Assembly (NCBI RefSeq): GCF_900142545.1
Contig: NZ_FRBF01000004.1
Location: forward strand, 186,001 to 250,000
DNA length: 64,000 bases
Direction of reading: 5' to 3'
Source: Fibrobacter sp. UWT2
GTDB taxonomy: Bacteria > Fibrobacterota > Fibrobacteria > Fibrobacterales > Fibrobacteraceae
Program-made: the position numbers and the translations under genes
Notes under the pieces: model-generated
Seen by the model: the letters and a program-made list of their open reading frames with translations, nothing else
Database searches by the model: none
Told to the model about the DNA's origin: nothing
Part shown: positions 2,468 to 50,092 of the stretch, one piece after another
Numbering within the stretch: position 1 is the first letter of the stretch
How the letters are laid out: each line of letters starts with the position of its first letter

Positions 2468-4267
2468 ATGGGCCATTGGGCTAAAATTATATCTACAACG
2501 GCGCTATTTGCGTCATTTACATTTGCGCAGACATACGATTTGCCTATAGTGTTTATTGACACCAAGCAGAAATGTCTTGACAAGAGTGTCACTGAAAAGA
2601 TTCCTGCAACCATGAAGGTGCTGGACGGAAAAACGAACAATGTGGCTGACAGTGCCAAGGGCACACGCTATGATATCGGTATCAAGGTTCGTGGTCAGTC
2701 TTCGGCCTTGTTCCCGAAGCCTGGTTATGGCGTGGAAGTCCGCGACGAAAAAGGCGAAGGCATGGACGTGAGCCTGTTTGGGCTCCCTCCTGGTGACGAC
2801 TGGGTGTTCCACGGTCCGTATGTAGACAAGAGTATGATGCGTAATGCGCTTGCCCATTGGCTCTTTAGGCAGGCCGGGCATTATAGCCCCCGTAGCAGAC
2901 ATTTTGACTTGTACATCAACGGTGTTTATCGCGGTGTGTACGTGCTTCTCGAAAAAATCAAGCGCGGCAAGTATCGTGTGAACGTGAGCAAGCTTAAAGA
3001 AACCGATGTCGCGGGCGACAGCGTTACCGGCGGTTACATTTGGGCATTTGACAAGACGGGTACCAATACGGGTGGTGCAGGCAGCGGTCCCATCGAAAAG
3101 GAAGGCTTCAATACTTCGGACGGCCTGAACGTCATTTTGCATTACCCGAAAAAGGAAAATATCCAGAAGGCCCAGGAAGAATACCTGAAAAAATACCTGA
3201 ACGATCTTGAAGGCTTGTTCAAGAACGGCAAGAACGGTAGCGGATACGAAAACTATGTGGACATGACTTCGGCACTCGATTACGTGTTGCACGAAGAAAT
3301 TACCAACAATGCGGACTCTTACTGGTGCAGTTTCTTCTTGCACAAGCCCAAGGACAGTAAGGGCGGTAAGGTGACGCTTGGCCCGGCATGGGACTTTAAC
3401 CTTGCCATGAGTAACGGAAGCCAGCCTGAAAATGGCGGTGGCCAAGGCGGCCAGGGTGGTATGTGGGGCTTTGGCGGCGGTGGAAACGGCTTTGGAAGTT
3501 CCGGCGTCACCGGTTGGCAAATCGAAAATAGCCAGAAATCAGGCAACGGTGGCATGTGGGGTATGGGAAGCTCTCTGAAAGCTCCGAACTGGCTTTTGGG
3601 AATGTGGAAAGACAGCCATTACCAGAGCGAACTGAAGAAGCGCTGGGCGGAACTCCGTAGCGGTGTATGGCACACCAAGACGATGGATGCATACTTGGAT
3701 TCCATGAAAATCTATTTGAAGAACGCTGCCGACAGAAACTTCAAGCGTTGGCCGAACTTGGGCAAGGCTAGTGGCCAAAACGATACTGACCCGGAGCCGA
3801 TGAAGTACTGCAATAGCCAGAGTGGCGGCTTTGGAATGGCTATGGGCGGCTATAATGCCGACACCTGGGACGGCGAGTTTGAACATCTTCGCAAGAAAAT
3901 GAAAGAAAGAATGGCCTGGATGGACCAGCAACTCGGATTTACCGAACCGGCTAATCCGATTGTAACGGAACCCGTGATTCATGATCCGGACTGGCAGAAC
4001 GACGAAAAAAACAAGACAGACCCCCCTCCGATGAATGTCGGTTTGGATGATTTCAGCAGACTTTCTCCGACGAACTTCTTTACTGTAAATGGCGATTATC
4101 TTGAAATTCAAACAAGCCTGGGCGGAACCTTTGCACTCATAGACTTGAATGGCACAGTGTTGTTCAAGACCCGTATCAATAAGGGACTCACGACTCTGAG
4201 AATTCCGTCTAAGGCCATGAACAGGCACTGGATTGCGACGCTCAACGGAAAAATGCTGAGTAAATAG
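2468..4267 (+). CDS. Secreted CotH-family protein
   Basis: A 599-residue protein with signal peptide MGHWAKIISTTALFASFTFA. CotH proteins have a protein-kinase-like fold; Bacillus CotH phosphorylates spore-coat proteins, and homologues in fibre degraders are cell-surface proteins. Family landmarks are IKVRGQSS near residue 70, DDWVFHGPYVDKSMMRN, LYINGVYRGVYVLLEKI and the metal-binding-type GPAWDFNLAMSN near residue 310. A Gly/Met/Trp-rich insertion follows at about 320-375. The last ~75 residues (from LDDFSRL, ending ATLNGKMLSK) resemble a compact beta sorting domain of the type IX secretion kind, which would place the protein on the surface; that is inference. The ATG at 2468 follows TTGGAGG. 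Confidence 0.85.
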   Translation: MGHWAKIISTTALFASFTFAQTYDLPIVFIDTKQKCLDKSVTEKIPATMKVLDGKTNNVADSAKGTRYDIGIKVRGQSSALFPKPGYGVEVRDEKGEGMDVSLFGLPPGDDWVFHGPYVDKSMMRNALAHWLFRQAGHYSPRSRHFDLYINGVYRGVYVLLEKIKRGKYRVNVSKLKETDVAGDSVTGGYIWAFDKTGTNTGGAGSGPIEKEGFNTSDGLNVILHYPKKENIQKAQEEYLKKYLNDLEGLFKNGKNGSGYENYVDMTSALDYVLHEEITNNADSYWCSFFLHKPKDSKGGKVTLGPAWDFNLAMSNGSQPENGGGQGGQGGMWGFGGGGNGFGSSGVTGWQIENSQKSGNGGMWGMGSSLKAPNWLLGMWKDSHYQSELKKRWAELRSGVWHTKTMDAYLDSMKIYLKNAADRNFKRWPNLGKASGQNDTDPEPMKYCNSQSGGFGMAMGGYNADTWDGEFEHLRKKMKERMAWMDQQLGFTEPANPIVTEPVIHDPDWQNDEKNKTDPPPMNVGLDDFSRLSPTNFFTVNGDYLEIQTSLGGTFALIDLNGTVLFKTRINKGLTTLRIPSKAMNRHWIATLNGKMLSK

Positions 4268-4285
4268 TAGTACGAAAAAAGGGAG

Positions 4286-4329
4286 TCTGAATTCAATTCC
4301 GAAATCTGAATTCAGATATCCGGAATCGC
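4286..4329. repeat. Degenerate 7-bp tandem repeat (AATTCNG type)
   Basis: The gap after cotH reads as successive 7-mers AATTCCG, AAATCTG, AATTCAG, ATATCCG. It is one of seven intergenic places in this window with period-7 degenerate repeats. It also contains the palindrome ATCTGAATTCAGAT, so a hairpin is possible between the two convergent genes. Confidence 0.55.
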
Positions 4330-4598
4330 TATAGATAATGCTTGACCTTGTTTACAGGGTCAAGATTTTCTTTTGGGGGCTTGGGAACATAAATCTTGAC
4401 GGCGTACACGTAGTGGTCGGTTTCGACCAGGATGTCGCCTTCTTGCATGTCTTCGTTGATGTCTATTTCGATTTCTACACCGTCGCGGGCGATGCGGCGG
4501 ATAGAGTGTTCCTTAAGTTCGTGTTTTTCGAACAGAACGTCGACGACTTTCTTGTAGGTGCCGTGATGGATGGTGCCCAGAATGCTATTGCAAATCAT
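4329..4598 (-). CDS. UreE N-terminal-domain-like small protein
   Basis: An 89-residue protein that matches the pattern of the UreE urease-accessory N-terminal domain: a start like ILGTIHHG, a VDVLFEKHEL strand, RRIARDGVEIEIDI, then EGDILVETDHYVYAVKI. The C-terminal nickel-handling domain and His-rich tail of true UreE are absent, and no urease gene is in the window. It is last in a minus-strand operon after the nucleotidyltransferase-like gene (14-base gap) and the TPM gene. A role in metal or protein binding is possible, but none can be assigned. Confidence 0.55.
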   Translation of the reverse strand: MICNSILGTIHHGTYKKVVDVLFEKHELKEHSIRRIARDGVEIEIDINEDMQEGDILVETDHYVYAVKIYVPKPPKENLDPVNKVKHYL

Positions 4599-4612
4599 TT
4601 ATAATTCCCGTA

Positions 4613-5302
4613 TTAAACCGCATCCATGGTATCGACCTGGTTTACGATTTCAGTGACGGTCGCAATATAGCTATTTATGCTTTCGATGAAAGCCTTTTCA
4701 TTCCGGCTACTGATGGGAGCGCGGAGGGCGGGGTAGGCACTAAAGATCTGCTGGTGGTTTTCGGGGTAGACCTTATGAATCAGGTAGTAAACCCCGTACA
4801 TAATGGGGAGTAGCGTCGCATTGGCGCGGGCAAAGAATCCGAGCGGGTTGCGATCTTGCTGCAGGTAGATGTAGGCTTCGCGCAGGTGAATGAGCAGGCC
4901 GCGGAGCTCGCGTTCGCATTCAAGACGCAGGCATTCTACATTCGGCTGGTAATTCGGCAGGGGCTTTGCTCCGGCGAGGGCTACGTTACGGTTTGCGATA
5001 TGCAAAAATTCGAGAGGGAATACGTCTTCGGAAGTTTGGATTTCTTTAAGAGTAAAGAAATAGCGAAACTCGATATTTTCTTTCTTGGCTTCGCGCAACA
5101 GGTTCTGCAGAGGCTTGATGCTTGCCGTAGAATTGTTTCGCAAGATAAAGCTTATGGTCCAGGGACTTTCGAGTGCGTTGAACCCTTCGACTAGGCAGTC
5201 GCCATGAATGAATGCCGAAATTAGGTTGTCGCCCAGGGCTTGTTGCAGCATGCCGGGCCAGTTGGACCTTTGAAGTTCTACGATGCTCAGGTTCTTTTTC
5301 AT
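4613..5302 (-). CDS. Nucleotidyltransferase-like protein, probably degenerate
   Basis: A 229-residue cytoplasmic protein. The first half (ISAFIHGDCLVEGFNALESPWTI and onward) resembles the fold of stand-alone nucleotidyltransferases, but I cannot find the usual GS...DxD catalytic pair. The second half is helical (ECERELRGLLIHLREAYIYL), like the HEPN-type helical partners of such proteins. The start at 5302 is preferred over an upstream extension because AGGTGATT precedes it and the extension would overlap the TPM gene. It lies 7 bases behind the TPM gene's TGA and is probably co-translated. No function is assigned. Confidence 0.5.
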   Translation of the reverse strand: MKKNLSIVELQRSNWPGMLQQALGDNLISAFIHGDCLVEGFNALESPWTISFILRNNSTASIKPLQNLLREAKKENIEFRYFFTLKEIQTSEDVFPLEFLHIANRNVALAGAKPLPNYQPNVECLRLECERELRGLLIHLREAYIYLQQDRNPLGFFARANATLLPIMYGVYYLIHKVYPENHQQIFSAYPALRAPISSRNEKAFIESINSYIATVTEIVNQVDTMDAV

Positions 5303-5309
5303 AATCACC

Positions 5310-6125
5310 TCACCAGGAATTCCTGTTCCCGAATCCGCTGTTGCCAAAACCGCTTCCAAATCCACCGCCAAAGCCTCGTGGACTGCTTCCGAATCCGCCG
5401 CCGAATCCGATTTCGGGTTCGTCCTTCTTTTTGTTCTTGATGGCGCCGCCGAACAGGAACCAGAAGATTCCGTTGCCGCGTCCGCCGCTGAACTTTGCCA
5501 TCAGCAGCAAGAACGATACAAAGAGGATAAACAAAATCATGAGCGAAGATGTACTGTTCGTGCTGATTTTGTAAGGGGTTTCATCAATGTCAAGCTTGAC
5601 GCCTTTTGCCTTCGCCCCCATCTGGGCGATAGCGTAAGAAAGGGATAGAATGCCTTCGCCGTAGTTGTATTCGCGGAATGCAGGAAGTAGAGTCTTCTTT
5701 TGGATTTTGGCGAGAGACTTTTCGCTGTAATACTTTTCTGCACCGGGAGTGACGACGATATTTTTCCAGCGTTGCTTCTGGGAAACGAAAATCATGACGC
5801 CTTCGCCGCTTTCTTTGCCAAGTTGCCATGCGTCTGCTGTATTTTGGGCGTACTTGTCGCCTTTTTCGAACTGGTTTGCGTGTCCGATGTCGTCAACGAT
5901 GACGCAAGTGAGTTCAATTCCAGTCTTTTTGTAGAGTTTGTCTGCTAAATCGTCGAAAAGACGAGTCTCAGTCGCATTAAGCAGGTGGTTGTCGTCGTAA
6001 ATATTGCTTTCGGCGGGCTTTAAAGGGTATCTAGGCGCTTCAAAAACTGCCTCTGCCATTGCCCCCTGTGCAAGACATAGGCAGAGGAGTGTAATACATA
6101 TGGAAAATCGCCTTAATAGAAACAT
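5310..6125 (-). CDS. TPM-domain (YgcG-type) membrane protein
   Basis: About 271 residues: a signal peptide (ICITLLCLCLAQGAMA), then a periplasmic TPM domain from about residue 38 to 180 with VYDDNHLL/TETRLFDDLADKLYKKTGIEL, the conserved ESGEGVMIFVS and GAEKYYSEKSL. One transmembrane segment follows (LMILFILFVSFLLLM), then a Gly/Phe/Ser-rich tail with GGGFG repeats. TPM proteins are envelope proteins, some tied to photosystem repair or phosphatase activity; the bacterial role is unclear. GTG at 6128 or ATG at 6125 could start it. First gene of a three-gene operon. Confidence 0.8.
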   Translation of the reverse strand: MFLLRRFSICITLLCLCLAQGAMAEAVFEAPRYPLKPAESNIYDDNHLLNATETRLFDDLADKLYKKTGIELTCVIVDDIGHANQFEKGDKYAQNTADAWQLGKESGEGVMIFVSQKQRWKNIVVTPGAEKYYSEKSLAKIQKKTLLPAFREYNYGEGILSLSYAIAQMGAKAKGVKLDIDETPYKISTNSTSSLMILFILFVSFLLLMAKFSGGRGNGIFWFLFGGAIKNKKKDEPEIGFGGGFGSSPRGFGGGFGSGFGNSGFGNRNSW

Positions 6126-6220
6126 CACTTTGAAAATATAAAGTTTATTTCCAAAAAGGTGAGCGTGAACTTAATTTTTCATATGATTTTGGCTATAAAG
6201 TTTATATGTATCTTATGAAA

Positions 6221-6244
6221 TGGAATATTCCTACTTGGAATATG
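6221..6244. promoter_or_regulatory. GGAATAT motif cluster upstream of 6333 gene
   Basis: TGGAATATTCC followed at once by TTGGAATATG lies in the divergent gap between the TPM gene and the gene at 6333. The same 9-mer TTGGAATAT forms one arm of the palindrome at 55789-55807. A binding site is possible but unproven. Confidence 0.35.
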
Positions 6245-6332
6245 TTTTTTTTTCTTCAATAGGTGTTCTATCCAAAAAAAACTCTATATATTTAGGAGTG
6301 GGTTACGAATAGAACAATAGGATTGGATAATT

Positions 6333-47456: not shown

Positions 47457-47463
47457 TCGGAAG

Positions 47464-47478
47464 CGGAATAGCGAGATT
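47464..47478 (+). repeat. Direct repeat of the tRNA-Pro 3' end
   Basis: CGGAATAGCGAGATT is identical to 47648-47662, the 3' end of the intact tRNA-Pro on the minus strand. A 14-base copy of the next tRNA segment, TTCGAACTCACGAC, lies at 47558-47571. Together they are a broken copy of the tRNA 3' half, as expected for an integration site remnant. Confidence 0.75.
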
Positions 47479-47595
47479 GACGCCTGCGGCGTCCGCGGCA
47501 TCGACTCGGTCATGACAGCCCGCGAGCGGTCTGTCGCGACGCTCACCTCGCACGCTTTTCGAACTCACGACTTCGTCGTTCGTTCTCAATCTCGC
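47471..47595. mobile_element. 125-bp MITE-like element with 10-bp inverted repeats
   Basis: GCGAGATTGA at 47471-47480 and its exact complement TCAATCTCGC at 47586-47595 bound a GC-rich segment. Inside is the hairpin GACGCC-TGC-GGCGTC and GCGAG...CTCGC. The left end overlaps the tRNA-Pro fragment and a second fragment lies inside. It is too short for a transposase and looks like a non-autonomous or tRNA-derived element. Confidence 0.5.
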
Positions 47596-47604
47596 CAAAT
47601 CCAT

Positions 47605-47647
47605 ATAAGACAAAAAAGACACCCTAGAAGGTGTCTTTTTGTCTTAT
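47605..47647. terminator. Bidirectional terminator between higBA region and tRNA-Pro
   Basis: AAAAAGACACC pairs with GGTGTCTTTTT around CTAGAA and extends outward through ATAAGAC/GTCTTAT with a one-base bulge, about 18 pairs. It directly abuts the 3' end of the minus-strand tRNA and can serve both strands. Confidence 0.85.
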
Positions 47648-47720
47648 CGGAATAGCGAGATTCGAACTCACGACCTCTTGCTCCCGAAGCAAGCGCTCTA
47701 CCAGGCTGAGCTATATTCCG
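47647..47720 (-). tRNA. tRNA-Pro (anticodon CGG)
   Basis: Minus strand: the acceptor stem CGGAATA pairs with TATTCCG, with discriminator A. The anticodon stem CTTGC/GCAAG encloses the loop TTCGGGA, giving anticodon CGG, and the T-loop is GTTCGAATC. 74 bases, no encoded CCA. The 3' half is partly duplicated at 47464-47571. Confidence 0.93.
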
Positions 47721-47798: not shown

Positions 47799-48269
47799 TT
47801 ATTTCTTGGCGGGCTTTCTGGGGGCTTTTGTCGGGGCGGGGCGCGGTTTTCCGAGGATCATGATGCTCGAACCGGCGTTGTCGGGCTCGACTTTGTACAG
47901 CTGAATGCGGTTGCTCCATTCGGAACGCACCTTGCGGTCGATAATGCGCTTCACGTTGCCGTAGCTGGGGTTACCGCCGCCGTGGATGACCCTGAGAATC
48001 TTGAGACCTGCAATCATCAGGTCATCGATGCGCCGCTCCACGGCTTCCGCTGCCTCGTCCGAGGTCATGCCGTGCAGGTCGATTTCGTCTTCAGGCACAG
48101 GTAGCTCCCATGCGCTCGGGCTGCGGCGCATTTTACGCCCACGCGGGGCGCGCGATGGGCGAGCGGCGGCGGCCGATTCGGCCTCTTTCTGCATCTGCGC
48201 GTCCTTGTCTTCCATGTGGTGGTTGTTGATCCACTGCAGCTGGAATTCTTCTTCTTGATTTAGCGCCAT
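47799..48269 (-). CDS. Smr-domain protein
   Basis: 156 residues. The N-terminal half is low-complexity and basic (AAAARPSRAPRGRKMRRS). The Smr domain starts with DEIDLHGMTSDEAAEAVERRIDDL and continues LRVIHGGGNPSYGNVKRIIDRKVRSEWSNRIQLYKVEP. Stand-alone Smr proteins resemble the C-terminal nuclease domain of MutS2; some act in ribosome rescue by cutting mRNA. Which role applies here is unknown. Ends with a Pro/Lys-rich tail. Confidence 0.85.
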   Translation of the reverse strand: MALNQEEEFQLQWINNHHMEDKDAQMQKEAESAAAARPSRAPRGRKMRRSPSAWELPVPEDEIDLHGMTSDEAAEAVERRIDDLMIAGLKILRVIHGGGNPSYGNVKRIIDRKVRSEWSNRIQLYKVEPDNAGSSIMILGKPRPAPTKAPRKPAKK

Positions 48270-48425: not shown

Positions 48426-49259
48426 ATGAGTCGTTTGCGGGTTGTTACAGCTCTATTTGCCTTGCTGGTATTTATGGGTTGTGTAAAAAACGAAGTCCCT
48501 GAAAACAGGGTATTTTCGCTTGACGACTTGGCAAACAAAAAAGTGGGCGTGCTTGTTGGTACAACGGGCGAAATTTACGCAGCCGATTATGGTACGGACT
48601 CTACTCGACTCCAATTGGAAAAGTTCGAAACGCTTGCTCAGGCGGTGGACGCCTTGTTGGAAGGTTCCATTGATGCCGTGCTCACGGACGATGCTCCGGC
48701 CAAAGTCTTTGCCCGCAAAAAGCCCTCTCTCAGAATTTTGAATGAAATCTTCAAGGAAGAATCGTATGCAGGCATTGTCGCTAAAGAAAACATGGGCTTG
48801 CTTGATTCTGTCAATATCGCTCTAATCCAGATGCGTGCGATGGGCGTTTACGATTCGATTTTTGATGCCTATATCGGCGGACAATCCAAGTATCACGTTA
48901 AGACTGATTCGGTGACTGGTCCTGTTCTTAGAGTGGCGACCAATGCCGAATTCCCTCCGTTTGAATTCCGTTGCCAAAAGCGCGGAATCGTGGGTATCGA
49001 TATCGAAATTGCTCGCTACGTGGCTAATTACCTGGAACGTCCGGTCGAAATTATTGATATGGATTTTGACGATATCATCGATTCTATTCGAGCCGGGAAA
49101 GCGGACCTTGGTCTTGCGGCGTTCTCGGTCACTGAAGAACGCGGACAGGTCATCAATTTTACGGATAACTATGCCACTTCGAAAATTGTGGTCATGGTGC
49201 GCAGTGGCGAAAATGAATCGACTTTCCAGCGCATCAAGGATTCCCTTTTCGGGGGCTAA
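48426..49259 (+). CDS. Circularly permuted solute-binding lipoprotein (SBP_bac_3 type)
   Basis: 277 residues. Lipobox FMGC, Cys at residue 19. In ordinary type-3 solute-binding proteins the order is RVATxAxFPPFEF...G(I/F)D(I/V)xxA...D...SxTEERxxxxxF, then SLxDLxxKKVGVxxGTT...DAVxTD...YxIxxxK. Here the second block (SLDDLANKKVGVLVGTTGEIY, IDAVLTDD, SYAGIVAKEN) comes first, at residues 31-151. The first block (VLRVATNAEFPPFEF, GIDIEIARYVA, AFSVTEERGQVINFTD) comes second, at 167-262. This suggests a circular permutation. No ABC permease gene is adjacent, so it may be a stand-alone sensor. Stops are shared with lpxL. Confidence 0.75.
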   Translation: MSRLRVVTALFALLVFMGCVKNEVPENRVFSLDDLANKKVGVLVGTTGEIYAADYGTDSTRLQLEKFETLAQAVDALLEGSIDAVLTDDAPAKVFARKKPSLRILNEIFKEESYAGIVAKENMGLLDSVNIALIQMRAMGVYDSIFDAYIGGQSKYHVKTDSVTGPVLRVATNAEFPPFEFRCQKRGIVGIDIEIARYVANYLERPVEIIDMDFDDIIDSIRAGKADLGLAAFSVTEERGQVINFTDNYATSKIVVMVRSGENESTFQRIKDSLFGG

Positions 49260-50092
49260 ACCTTAAAGTTCCCGTGGTAATTCCAACTCCACTGTCCGGG
49301 GTGCTCGGAAATCCACGTTTCAGTTTCTTTTGCAATGTCCGCGACGAGTTTTTCGGGATCGGACTTGGGCGGATAGACGCTTTCAAAACGGATGACGATT
49401 TGCCGCTTTGTGTTGGTCCATGTGCGGAACGTGACGATGGAGGCTCCCATCTGATTCACTTTCTGCGGGAGACGCAAGTATAGCGTGCTCTTTAGACCGA
49501 AGAGCTCAACTGAATTGCCTTTGGTGTTTTTGCCTTGGTCAAAAACCATCGCAAGAATTCCCTTGGTCTTGAACAAGTCGCGGATCAGTTTGCCTGTTTC
49601 TTCGGGGTGGTATTCGGTCAGATGCGGATCGCTGCGGAGTTCCTTGAGCACTTCGCGGAAGGCTTCGTTACCAACGGAATCGGTAATCAGGTGCACATGT
49701 TCGCTGTAGCGGCAAAGGCTACGGTGCAAGAGCTCGAACGCACCTTGATGAATGCTGATGGCTGCGACAGGGCTTTGCTTTACCGCCTCACGGATGATTT
49801 CTTCGTTTTCGTAGACGATTCGGCTTTCGACGCTTTTAAAGCGGGCGAGTCCGCGGTAAGAATCGAGCGCGTTCCAGAAGATTCCCTTGAACATGTCGCG
49901 AGCGCTTATGCTTGTCTTTATATAAGCTTTCGCGTTTGCAAGGTGCCTTACCGTGCGCCCGTAGGCTCGCTCGGTATGGAGCGCCTTATAGACAGGGAAC
50001 ACAAATGAGAATAGTATTGTGTAGAAAACGTTTGGCAAGCGGAGTAGGAATTGGAGCGTAGCTTTGTATAGGACGAACCTAATATTCTTCAT
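49256..50092 (-). CDS. lpxL: Lipid A biosynthesis acyltransferase (LpxL/HtrB family)
   Basis: 278 residues. Transfers a secondary acyl chain to the lipid A precursor on the inner membrane. An N-terminal membrane segment (FLLRLPNVFYTILFSFVFP) is present. The catalytic HX4E motif reads HQGAFELLHR near residue 115, with a typical late EHPGQWSWNYHGNFK. LpxL and LpxM cannot be told apart by eye, and a non-lipid A acyltransferase is possible. Follows the UDP-sugar pyrophosphorylase gene on the same strand across a heptamer repeat. Confidence 0.83.
   Translation of the reverse strand: MKNIRFVLYKATLQFLLRLPNVFYTILFSFVFPVYKALHTERAYGRTVRHLANAKAYIKTSISARDMFKGIFWNALDSYRGLARFKSVESRIVYENEEIIREAVKQSPVAAISIHQGAFELLHRSLCRYSEHVHLITDSVGNEAFREVLKELRSDPHLTEYHPEETGKLIRDLFKTKGILAMVFDQGKNTKGNSVELFGLKSTLYLRLPQKVNQMGASIVTFRTWTNTKRQIVIRFESVYPPKSDPEKLVADIAKETETWISEHPGQWSWNYHGNFKV

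Follow-up and report, generated by a model that had tools for sequence, protein, structure and literature searches.

A naturally circularly permuted SBP_bac_3 lipoprotein of Fibrobacter and its relatives in amino-acid ABC importers

The gene and its neighbourhood

In Fibrobacter sp. UWT2, a lipoprotein gene with matches to the SBP_bac_3 family of solute-binding proteins lies between a gene for an Smr-domain protein and a gene for a lipid A acyltransferase-like protein (Table 1). The window, which here means the whole stretch of 64,000 nucleotides that was analysed, contains neither a permease nor an ATPase gene adjoining it, and in this respect the preliminary description, which had noted the missing permease, was correct. 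Judged from its sequence, the product is a bacterial lipoprotein with a signal peptide and a lipobox cysteine; Cys19 and Gly18 are invariant among six orthologues. A tRNA-Pro(CGG) gene is located nearby on the minus strand (47647-47720), and a stretch at about 47570-47600 has the string cgaactcacgac in common with it. This tRNA-like stretch (window 47459-47720 region) is perhaps a tRNA remnant; it was present as a single copy in the genome when checked as a repeat family.

Table 1. Coordinates of the permuted lipoprotein gene, its parts and its flanking genes (position 1 is the first letter of the window)
Feature	Position	Strand	Remarks
Circularly permuted SBP_bac_3 lipoprotein, whole gene	48426..49259	+	277 aa + stop, ATG start
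Lipoprotein signal peptide (aa 1-18) and lipobox Cys19	48426..48482	+	MSRLRVVTALFALLVFMGC; lipobox FMGC
Half '2' (aa 28-152), normally the end of the protein	48507..48881	+	Matches 4zv1 residues 108-232; lobe2 HMM
New linker (aa 153-166), old C-terminus to old N-terminus	48882..48923	+	2->1 gap; fast-evolving
Half '1' (aa 167-260), normally the start of the protein	48924..49205	+	Matches 4zv1 residues 11-107; SBP_bac_3 profile 1-95
C-terminal tail (aa 261-277), predicted helix	49206..49256	+	DSSP on model, helix at mature residues 246-257
Asp88	48687..48689	+	Aligned with E. coli GlnH/ArgT/HisJ: GlnH Asp157 / ArgT (LAO) Asp161
Arg239	49140..49142	+	Aligned with E. coli GlnH/ArgT/HisJ: GlnH Arg75 / ArgT Arg77
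Smr-domain gene, flanking, outside the system	47799..48269	-	Conserved synteny
Lipid A acyltransferase-like gene, flanking	49256..50092	-	Conserved synteny; convergent, overlaps the end of the binding-protein gene

Orthologues with 61-97% identity and the same order of halves are encoded by 13 Fibrobacter genomes; two of these genomes carry two copies each. Of the ten neighbourhoods compared, most retain the gene for the lipid A acyltransferase-like protein and several the Smr gene. Both halves are under strong purifying selection, with dN/dS of 0.03-0.16 where estimable, while the linker evolves fast. One Fibrobacter genome (G019) encodes two adjacent orphan permuted lipoproteins, 63-70% identical to that of the window (L059, 9221-10731).

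Order of the two halves

The preliminary description had proposed that the half that normally ends such a protein comes first and the half that normally starts it comes second. Pfam, NCBIfam and PDB searches and half-specific HMMs all agree with this order. The start of the Pfam SBP_bac_3 profile (positions 1-95) matches aa 168-263, in the second half of the protein (whole-protein E 5.7e-29), and the score against PF00497 is 101 bits vs a cut-off of 26.4. TIGR01096 reaches 127.5 bits, a total below its own whole-protein cut-off, in two stretches of swapped order; GlnH and other curated models likewise match twice in swapped order. Against the solved structure 4zv1 (AncQR), aa 28-151 correspond to residues 108-232 and aa 167-263 to residues 11-107, two swapped stretches each matched once (E 3.6e-38). 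The scores exclude chance as the source of these matches. Half-specific HMMs also read the protein as 2-1, whereas they assign the order 1-2 to the control sequences, which are two E. coli proteins (GlnH and TcyJ) and the binding-protein genes found on contig C1 of the Fibrobacter genome itself. That contig (225000-240000) holds canonical-order SBP_bac_3 genes usable as controls, at least one of them adjoined by a permease gene (L088).

Family-profile matches are significant over both halves and place the protein in the SBP_bac_3 (type II, cluster F) family; all profile and structure matches are type II amino-acid proteins, with none pointing to a type I (cluster B) sugar-binding core. With its lobes put back in canonical order, it is 48% identical to a canonical Butyrivibrio protein (L112). 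The canonical chain, which runs from the start of lobe 1 through lobe 2 to the end of lobe 1 with two crossings, is not the one found here. Both halves are instead present once each, homologous to a single canonical protein and swapped, as in a circular permutant, and the protein belongs to the family in permuted form and not as a canonical member. As each half is matched once, a tandem duplication was rejected, as the preliminary description had also argued from its motifs.

The equation of the halves with the two lobes needs refinement. Half '2' comprises the distal lobe together with the C-terminal helices of the proximal lobe, and half '1' the N-terminal part of the proximal lobe; therefore, the cut does not separate two whole lobes but falls where the chain first crosses between them. 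Put differently, that crossing is where the ring has been opened, and a new linker connects the former chain ends.

Predicted fold and ligand site

An AlphaFold2 model of the mature protein, based on an alignment of 90 permuted modules and on permuted sequences only, has a pLDDT of 93.5 and a pTM of 0.85, with no low-confidence or disordered segment in its core. The model thus gives no sign of two separate incomplete folds, and the earlier suggestion that a permuted chain could still fold gains support from this confident single-chain prediction and from ligand-clamp residues that are intact in both halves. Foldseek matched the model to type II binding-protein folds at TM of about 0.3-0.5 and rmsd of 7-21 A, values expected if a sequential aligner meets a permuted chain; the result would agree with a permuted fold and is no proof of it.

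Alignment with E. coli GlnH, ArgT and HisJ indicates that the clamp residues Thr47, Asp88, Ser234 and Arg239 are kept across both halves. The arginine is conserved in 89 of the 90 permuted modules and the aspartate in 68 of them. We take the equivalents of Asp88 to bind the alpha-amino group, as in the established structures of GlnBP and LAO, and those of Arg239 to bind the alpha-carboxylate. Both parts of an alpha-amino-acid clamp, the arginine of lobe 1 and the aspartate of lobe 2, are present in the window protein, and its ligand is likely to be an alpha-amino acid. The residues of the specificity pocket are unlike those of GlnH (e.g. Lys115 is replaced by Leu43 and His156 by Thr87).

Permuted relatives and arrays

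The nearest paralogue in the same genome (C5), which is 51% identical, combines a lipoprotein signal, a permuted domain and a GlnP-type permease in 512 aa, and a GlnQ-type ATPase gene adjoins it. The counterpart of the C-terminal tail runs on into the permease domain in this paralogue; the Pfam domain BPD_transp_1 is absent from the window protein and present in the paralogue and relatives. A scan of Fibrobacterota with the half-specific HMMs found the order 2-1 in 53 ORFs, (2-1)x2 in 19, (2-1)x3 in one and the canonical order in five (controls included), counts that are not prevalences, as loci were picked for their resemblance to the window protein and some of them overlap.

A wider search of 85,000 species genomes, with one peptide pattern followed by the half-specific HMMs, answered the earlier call for homologues of the same order with many more, in Fibrobacter and in unrelated phyla. 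The order 2-1 occurs at loci from at least eight phyla, the phylum labels being record titles, mostly of metagenome bins, and the matches listed being a lower bound. Titles among the matches listed are Lachnospiraceae, Christensenella, Oscillospiraceae, Pelotomaculum, Syntrophomonas, Desulfobacteraceae, Methylobacter, Acidobacteriaceae, Bacteroidetes, Lentisphaerae and Chlorobiaceae. Unlike most permuted loci, L142 comes from an isolate (Pelotomaculum propionicicum). Two free permuted proteins (L106, L107) are encoded directly upstream of a permease gene, with an ATPase gene as well in L106, and single modules are fused to a permease in L104, L149 and L163. Arrays of two (L126), three (L125), four (L110, L114, L116) and five (L169) permuted modules on one permease also occur, and the last is a chain of 1504 aa (L169:634-5145). 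A third circular form, 2b-1-2a, is found in lipoproteins of two Clostridia bins (L153:3878-4753 and L167:3875-4750). It is cut in the middle of lobe 2, with HMM positions 62-115 first and 7-64 last, and both genes lie upstream of a GlnP-type permease gene, accompanied by an ATPase gene in L153.

In the 169 permuted modules, the 2->1 gap is tight, with a minimum of 17 residues and medians of 17-21. For the 1->2 gap, most canonical proteins have values of 8-10; between array modules it is longer and variable (medians 15-25). An AlphaFold2 model of a two-module Pelotomaculum array (pLDDT 89.4) falls below 50 only at residues 238-243, between the modules, and its pTM of 0.54 fits two bodies loosely oriented to each other. 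In a Foldseek alignment with canonical ArgBP, about 180 columns from the inner part of the array had 37% identity but an rmsd of 11 A, so the inner 1-2 pair is no canonical unit in the model. On linker lengths, position of the disorder and failure of the ArgBP superposition, the reading of arrays as canonical repeats out of register was rejected for the array tested.

Proposed function and alternative explanations

Building on the order, conservation, selection, relatives and predicted monomer fold, all directly established, the best explanation as a whole is a permuted type II flytrap lipoprotein that most likely acts as an auxiliary amino-acid receptor, a reading we consider highly probable. 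The product would be a natural circular permutant among the type II (cluster F, SBP_bac_3) binding proteins, anchored in the membrane. Its chain would start at the first inter-lobe crossing, run through the distal lobe, cross back once to the last helices of the proximal lobe and lead, by way of a new linker about 14-17 residues long, to what was the N-terminal strand; the remainder of the proximal lobe would come last. The outcome would be one ordinary bilobed Venus flytrap closing on an alpha-amino acid, with its lobes apparently held by one covalent crossing and not two, a topology read from sequence and predicted secondary structure. The protein would share ancestry with the permuted domain fused to a GlnP-type permease, capture an amino acid at the membrane and hand it to the C5 importer, formed by the permuted domain and permease with GlnQ.

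For this delivery step taken on its own, the chances appear roughly even. In the 13 Fibrobacter genomes with the orphan gene, the single-module fused importer is present in 12 and the two-module form in none (Fisher p=0.015, kinship ignored), and the association may be simple kinship. The remaining orphan genome, 81% complete, is without an importer match.

The preliminary description had inferred that the protein may sense rather than transport. As an orphan sensor, it would bind an amino acid and signal to a chemoreceptor or sensor kinase, feeding no importer. The gene does stand alone, without a neighbouring permease, in a conserved neighbourhood of unrelated genes, and the known permuted type I protein Tp0684 has been proposed as a chemoreceptor besides a transport receptor (PMC4990184). 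However, its closest relatives are parts of importers in every direction: the most similar paralogue in the genome carries its own permease beside an ATPase gene, and the free-standing permuted proteins most closely related to the window protein (L106, L107) are encoded directly upstream of importer genes. In addition, no sensor domain or receptor gene occurs near the window gene, and none of nine permuted relatives scanned with Pfam has a kinase or cyclase domain. Sensing is thus not favoured, and we regard it as unlikely. Overall, the permutation proposed by the preliminary description was supported and its interpretation as a whole only partly so.

A lobe-swapped dimer, in which the halves pair across molecules (half '2' from one with half '1' from the other) and the canonical wiring is restored between chains, appears very improbable. 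Swapped dimers are known among binding proteins, and the order 2-1 might result if a tandem canonical protein lost its two outer parts. Against this, the fold of a single chain is predicted at high pTM, and the minimum length of the new linker between HMM ends is tightly kept, as bridging within one chain needs. In the two-module array, the sole disordered stretch coincides with a 1->2 junction between modules, and the inner 1-2 pair, despite its identity to canonical ArgBP, does not superpose on it. An assembly error or a decaying remnant of two neighbouring binding-protein genes can practically be dismissed, for although a deletion between tandem copies would yield exactly the order 2-1, this order recurs in unrelated phyla and in 13 independently assembled Fibrobacter genomes, a related fused copy lies in a single-contig genome (G144, one contig, 3.1 Mb), the synteny around the orphan gene is conserved, stop codons are absent and dN/dS is far below 1 in both halves.

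Origin of the permuted forms

In trees built with the lobes put back in one order, the clade of the window protein (Fibrobacter and Lachnospiraceae L104) falls inside canonical Bacillota proteins with 100/99 support, apart from the array lineages. A single origin of all permuted forms was rejected (AU test, p=0.0006), and one clade of the five Bacillota-type permuted sequences, the window protein included, was not (AU p=0.083). The permease tree agrees, as it groups Fibrobacter permeases with L104 and L105 (96/65), places L106 among canonical systems and sets the array lineages apart. Thus, permuted forms arose by rearrangement at least twice.

The likely route is a duplication of the canonical domain followed by loss of its first and last parts. 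Tandem canonical domains are known, for example in GlnPQ (PMC8025302), and no intermediate of such a route was found among the loci scanned.

More tentatively, and with somewhat less than even confidence, we suggest that amino-acid ABC importers have taken the path of permutation repeatedly and with success. The same first-crossing cut would then have arisen two to four times independently, one lineage would have built up to five flytraps per chain and the third form would sample the last ring opening. Selection would have acted on altered opening dynamics or docking, brought about by the loss of one hinge crossing and the relocation of both chain ends to the hinge. If this is true, amino-acid importer families sample all three ways to open the ring.

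Comparison with known systems

A binding protein known to be permuted in nature is Tp0684 (TpMglB-2) of Treponema pallidum, a lipid-anchored, bilobed protein with a solved structure and measured ligand binding, for which, as a type I glucose protein, the class 'Type Ic / Cluster Bc' was proposed (PMC4990184). It is a precedent for tolerated permutation in a natural lipid-anchored protein. However, it has a sugar-binding type I (cluster B) fold, is cut within the N lobe and needs an extra crossing, whereas proteins of the window type belong to the type II (cluster F) amino-acid family, are cut at the first crossing and have one crossing fewer; they are also fused or arrayed on permeases, with several independent origins.

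GlnPQ of Lactococcus lactis (6h30) carries SBP_bac_3 domains (SBD1-SBD2) in tandem on a GlnP-type permease (PMC8025302), and 6h30 is the only PDB chain among the matches listed that covers both halves in one stretch. The tandem junction of GlnPQ gives the same local 2->1 order, but its domains are canonical (1-2), whereas every permuted module has the order 2-1, also in single chains that lack a completing neighbour. GlnH, ArgT (LAO) and HisJ of E. coli are homologous in both halves and share the alpha-amino and alpha-carboxyl clamp, yet they have the order 1-2 and are free periplasmic proteins, not lipid-anchored permutants. The sensor kinases BvgS and EvgS, to which Foldseek matched the two-module array with the best E-values, likewise carry tandem type II flytraps on one membrane protein. 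Their flytraps have the typical architecture, with two crossings per domain (PMC4352136), and they are sensors, not importers.

Among the best 60 PDB matches, no chain has the order 2-1 as a single module, and no description of permuted SBP_bac_3 proteins was found in a search of open-access literature, subscription papers being outside its scope. The widespread permuted SBP_bac_3 class is thus apparently undescribed; its repeated origin and its formation of arrays are the surprising parts.

Work on protein motion, on docking to transporters and on biosensor design uses Venus-flytrap binding proteins as models, and researchers have permuted them artificially. Natural permutants in at least eight phyla, with near canonical relatives (order-corrected identity of about 48-55%) for comparison, make the role of hinge crossings and of chain-end position directly testable in properties such as affinity, opening rate and delivery to the permease. 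They also expose a blind spot in annotation, in that domain databases report a partial domain, or a full one between two partials, and miss the permutation. Arrays would provide up to five receptors per permease chain, and a homodimeric permease would double this to as many as ten in each transporter.

Further arrangements

Some permuted loci have other architectures. L134 (3764-7297) encodes (2-1)x2, a permease and an ABC ATPase in one chain, an apparent all-in-one importer (Pfam, L134 only), and L145, L159, L165 and L166 likewise appear to encode all-in-one chains; the lengths in this group, L134 included, are about 1140-1180 aa. Long adjacent ORFs in L160 together resemble an array similar to or longer than the five-module one. 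In L086 (G142, 3932-6284), two overlapping ORFs with one permuted unit each lie beside an ATPase gene and look like a two-module array broken by a frameshift.
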